This document shows positions 14,814 through 15,171 of a stretch of DNA of 64,000 bases, one piece after another (position 1 is the stretch's first letter; each line of letters begins with the position of its first letter). Made by a program: the position numbers and the translations under genes. The DNA is from Rhabdothermincola salaria (GTDB taxonomy: Bacteria; Actinomycetota; Acidimicrobiia; Acidimicrobiales; Acidimicrobilacustridaceae): assembly GCF_021246445.1 (NCBI RefSeq), contig NZ_JAJQXW010000002.1, positions 62,001 to 126,000 of the forward strand, given 5' to 3'. The notes beneath the pieces are model-generated. The model worked only from the letters and a program-made list of their open reading frames with translations. It did no database searches and was not told the origin of the DNA.

Positions 14814-15146
14814 TCAGGTGCGGCGAGGTCGCGACGGGCAGGCGCCGCCGGAGCGTTGGGCCCGGCGGATGAGGTGGAACCCGTAGCCGGTGCCCAGCAC
14901 CCAGGTGAGCGTGAGCACACCGCCGGCGACCCAGGCGTGGTCGCGCACCAGCGCTCCGGCCGACGTGCCGGCCAGCACGGTGGCGAGCACGCCGAGGCTC
15001 AGCGGGAGGTGGCAGGGGCACAACAGGAACGACCACAGCAACCACCGGCGGCCGTGGCGCTCGAGCGCGACCGTCTCCGCGGCCGGGGCGACGAGGCCGT
15101 CGACGACCGGGAGCGACGAGGTGCGGTGGGGAGCGTCGGTCGCCAT
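14814..15146 (-). CDS. MerE-like small membrane protein with CPCHLP motif
   Basis: A 110-residue protein with two hydrophobic segments (about residues 38-65 and 70-92). The first contains LLCPCHLPLSLGVLATVLAG; the CPCHLP motif followed by an AGT(S)AGA segment is the signature of MerE mercury/organomercury uptake proteins. The C-terminus is Arg-rich with one Cys. ATG 15146 is preferred to 15182, which would place the start inside the operator. It is isolated: no MerA, MerB or MerR gene is nearby. It may move mercury or another thiophilic metal; the CsoR-type operator upstream suggests copper or related stress. Family match is by motif; ion is unproven. Confidence 0.7.
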   Translation of the reverse strand: MATDAPHRTSSLPVVDGLVAPAAETVALERHGRRWLLWSFLLCPCHLPLSLGVLATVLAGTSAGALVRDHAWVAGGVLTLTWVLGTGYGFHLIRRAQRSGGACPSRPRRT

Positions 15147-15171
15147 GCAACCACTATACCCCCCGGGGTGT
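15147..15171 (-). promoter_or_regulatory. CsoR-type operator overlapping a leaderless promoter of the MerE-like gene
   Basis: Read on the plus strand, 15155-15171 is TATACCCCCCGGGGTGT, an inverted repeat of the kind bound by CsoR/RcnR-family metal sensors (A/T flank, C-run, G-run, A/T flank). On the minus strand it leads into TATAGT (15158-15153), then six bases, then the ATG at 15146. Transcription would therefore begin at or next to the start codon, with the operator covering the -10 region. No csoR gene is in the window. Confidence 0.6.

Follow-up and report, generated by a model that had tools for sequence, protein, structure and literature searches.

What controls a gene for a MerE-like protein that has no evident mercury-resistance gene beside it, and what might the protein do there? 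In the window (the whole 64,000-nucleotide stretch of Rhabdothermincola salaria DNA that we analyzed), the genes adjoining merE are thiolase-like, DUF35-like, and enoyl-CoA-hydratase-like, as judged by eye. The first-pass annotation had described merE as standing alone in a catabolic region, which these neighbors bear out, and had proposed a metal or sulfur-stress channel under a CsoR-type operator. That reading holds in the main but can be made more precise: the operator appears to be of the CstR type, which points to persulfide, and it recurs at relatives. We think it likely that merE belongs to a CstR-type persulfide regulon and that its product is a membrane protein of sulfur homeostasis.

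The window gene encodes a MerE-family protein

The only Pfam match of the predicted protein (P0001) is MerE (PF05052; 36.1 bits, with a cut-off of 22.8). The CPCHLP motif, from which the first-pass annotation had named the family, is at residues 43–48, within the first of two membrane helices, and the open reading frame is where it was claimed to be. P0001 also has His70 in the loop and Cys103 in the C-terminal tail, which would be cytoplasmic by analogy with MerE. It fails the NCBIfam equivalog model for the broad-spectrum mercury transporter (NF010310; 39.1 bits instead of 80). An AlphaFold2 model of middling confidence (pLDDT 74.9, pTM 0.40) is a two-helix hairpin interrupted at CPCHLP, with helices at 22–42, 47–59, 62–69, and 71–98; a PDB search with the MerE profile gave no solved relative.

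CPCHLP is kept in all 28 aligned MerE rows. Cys43, Cys45, His46, and His70 align with Cys28, Cys30, His31, and His51 of Tn21 MerE, which are required for uptake of Hg or CH3Hg according to the portion of PMC5715351 available to us. The tail cysteine is found in all 26 non-plasmid rows and is missing from both plasmid MerEs (2/2). Because 7 of the 8 mer-like relatives from other families (L123–L130) carry one too, the tail cysteine is no mark of a sulfur role, and its value as a feature that separates P0001-type proteins from mercury transporters is weakened.

We rejected the idea that the window's merE is part of a mer operon, because its genome (G000) has no MerA above the cut-off (TIGR02053; 355 bits at best, with a cut-off of 454.45), though the same search detects MerA in G035 and G145. 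These were the only 2 of 27 genomes with MerA above the cut-off, and MerA and MerE are well separated in both (on different contigs in G035 and 0.38 Mb apart in G145). By eye, we noticed no mer genes beside the window's merE, nor around 8 of 12 operator-bearing MerE loci, where the ORF calls were crude. So, of the proposed "metal or sulfur-stress channel outside the mer system," the location outside mer stands, and a channel is one role that the protein might have.

Table 1. Features of the window's merE locus, and sites matching ATACCC-N4-GGGTAT (N4 sites) in its genome.
Feature	Location	Strand	Detail
CstR-type operator (predicted)	15156..15171	.	ATACCC-CCCG-GGGTGT; one mismatch to ATACCC-N4-GGGTAT
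-10 hexamer TATAGT (predicted)	15153..15158	minus	three bases are the operator's end
ATG start codon	15144..15146	minus	six bases after the -10
MerE-family ORF	15146-14814	minus	110 aa (P0001); ATG start, TGA stop
N4 site at merE	window, 15156-15171		
N4 site at rhodanese gene	L005		
N4 site at cstR-like gene	L007		
N4 site at thioredoxin gene	L008		
N4 site at type III SQR	L010		NCBIfam 574.7 bits, cut-off 525; best PDB relatives are SQRs
N4 site at small Cys-rich gene	L011		MFS-like gene on the other side
N4 site at DUF302 gene	L013		
N4 site at rhodanese lipoprotein	L028		
N4 site at SulP	L035		accompanied by a second, weaker site
N4 site at TauE	L038		
N4 palindrome (exact) at start region of family 2 glycosyltransferase	L006:1501-1516; G000:C1:469784		no evident sulfur link

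A compact promoter-operator

On the minus strand, the sequence reads ACACCC-CGGG-GGGTAT, whose final three bases open TATAGT, then GGTTGC, and then ATG, which packs the operator, the -10, and the start codon of merE into 28 bases. The first-pass annotation had the six-base spacing of TATAGT from the ATG exactly right, and the operator, the motif, and the -10 are at its coordinates. Because the ATG is only six bases after the predicted -10, the merE transcript is probably leaderless. The operator 17-mer occurs once in the window; because 0.11 occurrences are expected (at up to three mismatches) and 11 of 100 shuffles contain one, it is only mildly unusual within the window alone.

Loci L029 and L042 repeat the window's layout: the right half of the operator forms the -10 (TATCAT or TATACT), followed by six bases and ATG. 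In a second layout, the start codon is fused to the operator, ATACCCTNNNGGGTATG. (The pattern TATACCCCNNNNGGGTRT is one base too long and had no matches.) We examined the 34 distinct contexts of ATACCC-N4-GGGTATG in the loci that we fetched, which do not cover all of the 38 matches listed in 19 related genomes. If the first spacer base is T, 15 of 19 contexts open a recognized gene at the operator's own ATG; with any other base, at most 1 of 15 does (p = 3e-5, where "recognized" is a judgement made after viewing the list of contexts, and copies are related). The -10 consensus is loosely TAnnnT, which TACCCT would fit. The pattern is as if the operator, a -10 of TACCCT, and the start codon formed a single 17-bp element. 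Both layouts suggest leaderless mRNAs with a repressor covering the -10 and the start.

The 15 genes with a fused ATG encode MerE (L040, L041, L045, and L046), one rhodanese lipoprotein, and ten small Cys-rich proteins. The small Cys-rich protein (MC..., then CxxC, GCG.H..QVLG.V, and RCxC) begins at an ATG fused to the operator (GGGTATG) at L011:1515 onwards (G000:C1:1983218), L039:3426, L137, L142, L143, L144, L152, L154, L157, and L159. Two members scanned against Pfam and one scanned against NCBIfam had no match.

Operator spacing distinguishes two types of CsoR-family regulator

The first-pass reading implied a CsoR-family repressor, and the window's genome (3.9 Mb, 97.8% complete) encodes two. 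L001 is a Cys-His-Cys, copper-type CsoR, and a CopZ-like gene adjoins it back to back (by eye). L002 (domain at G000:C1:1125074-1125298) has Cys35 and Cys64, with glycine at the position of the metal-ligand histidine, which we take to be the CstR pattern. Its best match in the PDB is a CsoR (4m1p, 48.8 bits); 7mq1 and 7mq3, which were deposited as csoR and are presumably the pneumococcal CstR, score 42.9 bits. L002 is not above the cut-off of any NCBIfam model. Because whole-sequence similarity favors CsoR and no NCBIfam model passes, the CstR class of L002 rests on its residues, the operator spacing, and the company of genes.

We compared the promoters of CsoR-family genes from 22 of the 27 MerE-bearing genomes (the other five have no such genes). 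With up to two mismatches, ATACCC-N4-GGGTAT was present at all 14 CstR-type genes tested and at none of the 20 CsoR-type genes tested, 7 of which have the N5 version instead. The 14 include near-copies (L087/L089, L084/L085, and L090/L092, with the last pair sharing one site), as well as L096, which is cut by the contig end, and L081 and L095, which have lost the second cysteine. We left out L100 (frame-shifted, with four mismatches, though preceded by an N3 palindrome), L088 (a copy of L087), and L093 (from Paenibacillus, Cys-Asn-Cys, with three mismatches in its best N4 match). From the CsoR-type genes, we left out L070 (a copy), L097, L098, and L099 (odd or cut), and L080, a Cys-His-Cys protein whose gene has an N4 match with two mismatches; counting L080, N4 sites are found at 1 of 21. 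The genes L081 and L095 (from G406 and G411) keep the operator and the first cysteine.

Since the window operator has the N4 spacing, not the N5 spacing of copper CsoR sites, we assign it to the CstR (persulfide) type. The first-pass annotation had called it a copper/sulfur CsoR-type site: of the two, it is the sulfur part that finds support, in the spacing, the autoregulation, and the company of genes. The motif published for the sulfane-sulfur repressor of Streptomyces coelicolor (PMC7533328) is ATACC-n6-GGTAT, which has the same spacing as the window operator.

The N4 operator is found at sulfur genes

Across the window's genome, there are 11 N4 sites with at most one mismatch (Table 1), while the reversed pattern, our control, has none. 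Besides the site at merE, nine are beside sulfur-type genes or the small Cys-rich gene, so further copies of the operator, which the first-pass annotation suggested looking for, do exist. Across 26 genomes, the exact palindrome occurs in 56 places and the reversed pattern in 0; 7 of the 26 genomes have none. At 18 loci read by eye, we noted additional neighbors, among them a pair of persulfide-dioxygenase-like genes, TauE, SulP, and rhodanese lipoproteins, as well as CoA-disulfide-reductase-like, peroxiredoxin-like, and carbonic-anhydrase-like genes. At L115 and L116 (in G386 and G402), a beta-carbonic-anhydrase-like gene (by eye) follows an exact N4 site at a distance of 19 bases; its product is perhaps a CS2 or COS hydrolase of a sulfur regulon.

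The operator recurs upstream of merE

Pfam's MerE is rare, with matches in 6 of the 395 genomes of the class, and five are above the cut-off. A profile built from five sequences (A1) has matches in 13 of 396 genomes of the phylum, including eight mer-like proteins of other families; the stretches that we fetched around these eight contain no N4 site with two or fewer mismatches. A scan of named genomes gave 22 MerE loci, of which 20 are in records of Acidimicrobiia or other Actinomycetota and 2 are in Paenibacillus. Some of the MerE relatives from other families (L123 and L125–L130) have CPCHL but not CPCHLP, and no N4 site in the fetched stretch. At L129, a MerC/MerT-like Cys-pair protein adjoins the MerE relative, as true mer genes would (by eye).

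For 26 distinct MerE loci, including the window, we searched the 750 bases upstream of the CPC codon and recorded the N4 match with the fewest mismatches. (We left out L049, whose protein and coordinates equal those of L033, and L034, which is under the Pfam cut-off and in which CPCHLP was not found.) An operator with zero or one mismatch precedes MerE or its operon at 12 of the 26, including the window, and the best match at the other 14 has at least three mismatches. Only 1 of 2,600 dinucleotide shuffles of the upstream stretches reaches zero or one mismatch. So the operator is conserved at orthologs, as the first-pass reading required, in nearly half of the loci.

The operator precedes MerE in several arrangements. 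L033 has a Trx-MerE operon behind it, L047 encodes a nearly identical protein with the site equally far upstream, and L032 has a DUF302-MerE operon. At L039, the operator is followed by the small Cys-rich protein and MerE, and the facing strand of the same 7.8-kb contig encodes DUF302 (by eye), a metallo-beta-lactamase/rhodanese fusion (Pfam), and a cstR-like gene that is frame-shifted in the assembly. The fusion has the layout of the persulfide dioxygenase (PDO) in the available text of PMC7533328, yet no NCBIfam model for PDO passes. At L059:3801-4004, a 67-residue protein opens at the operator's ATG just 5' of MerE; it has a membrane-like stretch and two cysteines and is not above the cut-off for any family.

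Genomes with the operator usually encode a CstR-like protein: it is present in 10 and absent from 1, versus 6 and 8 for the operator-less genomes (p = 0.033, ignoring kinship, and with few independent pairs on the tree). Two of those six lack the second cysteine and were counted as CstR-bearing; G404 (a copy of G386) and G257 were left out. In G396, the operator is present and we did not find a CstR-like gene. On the MerE tree, the operator state changes four times, compared to a mean of 10 after shuffling (0 of 500 shuffles were as low), but resolution is weak, with stars on 5 of the tree's 30 branches, and near-copies inflate this result. L043 and L044 lack the site despite grouping with operator-bearing relatives.

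Weighing other explanations

Could the operator be due to chance, or serve the divergent enoyl-CoA hydratase, with MerE being constitutive? The hydratase's start (at about 15280) is about 110 bases away, and the 17-mer taken within the window is not striking, but the site overlaps the -10 of merE, and sites precede MerE in varying neighborhoods. We reject chance on the genome-wide control (11 versus 0) and the shuffles (12 of 26 loci versus 1 of 2,600), and we give this explanation as a whole almost no credence. It is also very unlikely that the copper CsoR controls merE and that the product moves copper or another thiophilic metal. The genome does encode a Cys-His-Cys CsoR, CsoR and CstR operators are closely alike, and L080 has a weak N4 match. 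However, none of the 20 tested CsoR-type genes has N4 (7 have N5), L001 itself has no N4 site, and none of the genome's 11 N4 sites is beside an evident copper gene; from the spacing and the gene company, we reject the copper CsoR as the regulator.

A closer competitor is that the protein truly imports Hg or methylmercury under the control of a persulfide sensor, with Hg(II) arriving in a cytoplasm full of sulfide and persulfide and being trapped as HgS or as a thiolate without MerA. P0001 is above Pfam's cut-off for MerE, preserves the cysteine pair and both histidines needed for uptake by Tn21 MerE (in the available portion of PMC5715351), and shares its tail cysteine with 7 of 8 mer-like relatives. 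Against this, it fails the mercury-transporter equivalog by a wide margin (39.1 versus 80 bits), 25 of 27 genomes have no MerA above the cut-off, and, by eye, no mer gene was noticed near 8 of the 12 loci that have the operator. We consider mercury import unlikely, if less so than copper.

A model for MerE in sulfur stress

Sequence analysis shows the operator and its class, that it recurs at relatives, which genes it accompanies, and the protein family of merE, and it gives good support to regulation of merE by this predicted CstR-type operator. Because merE sits behind a putative switch for sensing reactive sulfur, both in this genome and in several relatives, we suggest that the MerE-like protein acts in sulfur stress, either instead of handling mercury or in addition to it.

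In our model, the reduced CstR-like repressor would bind the operator, which overlaps the -10 and is near the start codon, and block transcription. Sulfane sulfur (persulfide or polysulfide) would modify the repressor's two cysteines and release it, and leaderless MerE mRNA would then be made alongside the mRNAs for SQR, rhodaneses, thioredoxin, DUF302, TauE, and SulP. MerE, as a two-helix membrane hairpin, probably passes a soft, thiol-reactive species in one direction or the other; candidates for the cargo include sulfane sulfur, sulfide, thiosulfate, or a sulfur-bound soft metal. The route would use the two cysteines of helix 1 together with the conserved tail cysteine. Three thiols in series could hand on sulfane sulfur by exchange, in a manner similar to the Hg relay proposed for MerT and MerE. 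More speculatively, MerE-family proteins might originally have been membrane carriers of sulfane sulfur under CstR, with a Cys-to-Cys persulfide relay across the bilayer, and mercury transport in mer operons might be a later reuse of this thiol relay; we view this as doubtful.

In our view, little is understood of how bacteria carry persulfide or related sulfur through their membranes. The MerE-like protein, whose operator links it to a persulfide-type regulon, is a concrete candidate for sulfur transport. Also, the label "mercury transporter MerE" may be wrong in such genomes, a point of concern when mercury-resistance genes are surveyed. If the spacer rule is true (N4 for CstR-type and N5 for CsoR-type), spacer length offers an easy means of telling the two regulons apart in these bacteria.

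Comparison to known systems

In a search of full-text literature, with subscription journals mostly outside its scope, no paper among those listed linked a MerE protein to a CstR or persulfide regulon. In the accessible part of PMC10433974, MerE is within a mer cluster, and persulfide is mentioned only for cysteine desulfurase; the terms CstR and MerE also co-occur in PMC9570271 and PMC13093988, which by their titles are S. aureus typing papers, while most of the other titles with both terms concern stirred tanks or give the words a different meaning. Here, a known protein family is placed in a predicted regulon in which we have not found it reported, with a compact promoter-operator.

Tn21-type MerE (PF05052, NF010310) shares with P0001 the two helices, CPCHLP in helix 1, and the loop histidine. 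Among the 25 matches listed, plasmid MerEs are 40–50% identical to P0001 over the aligned core; over the whole alignment, identity is 33–36%. Unlike Tn21-type MerE, P0001 is encoded outside a mer operon, in a genome with no MerA above the cut-off and behind a CstR-type operator; it also scores under the NCBIfam equivalog cut-off and has the tail cysteine (found in 0 of 2 plasmid MerEs).

As in the systems of S. aureus CstR and B. licheniformis YrkD, a persulfide-sensing repressor would control genes for SQR, PDO, TauE, or sulfurtransferases; in the available parts of PMC5480029 and PMC9918477, those systems form a single operon or cluster, and MerE is not described. There is also a likeness to the ScCsoR circuit of S. 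coelicolor. Its repressor (SCO0620) senses with Cys37 and Cys66, which are 29 residues apart as in L002, binds ATACC-n6-GGTAT, and controls a PDO (SCO0618), a rhodanese (SCO0621), and tauE; MerE is not among the members described in the sections of PMC7533328 available to us. In contrast to that circuit, as described there, the sites in the window's genome are scattered around the genome, and several of the starts are apparently leaderless.
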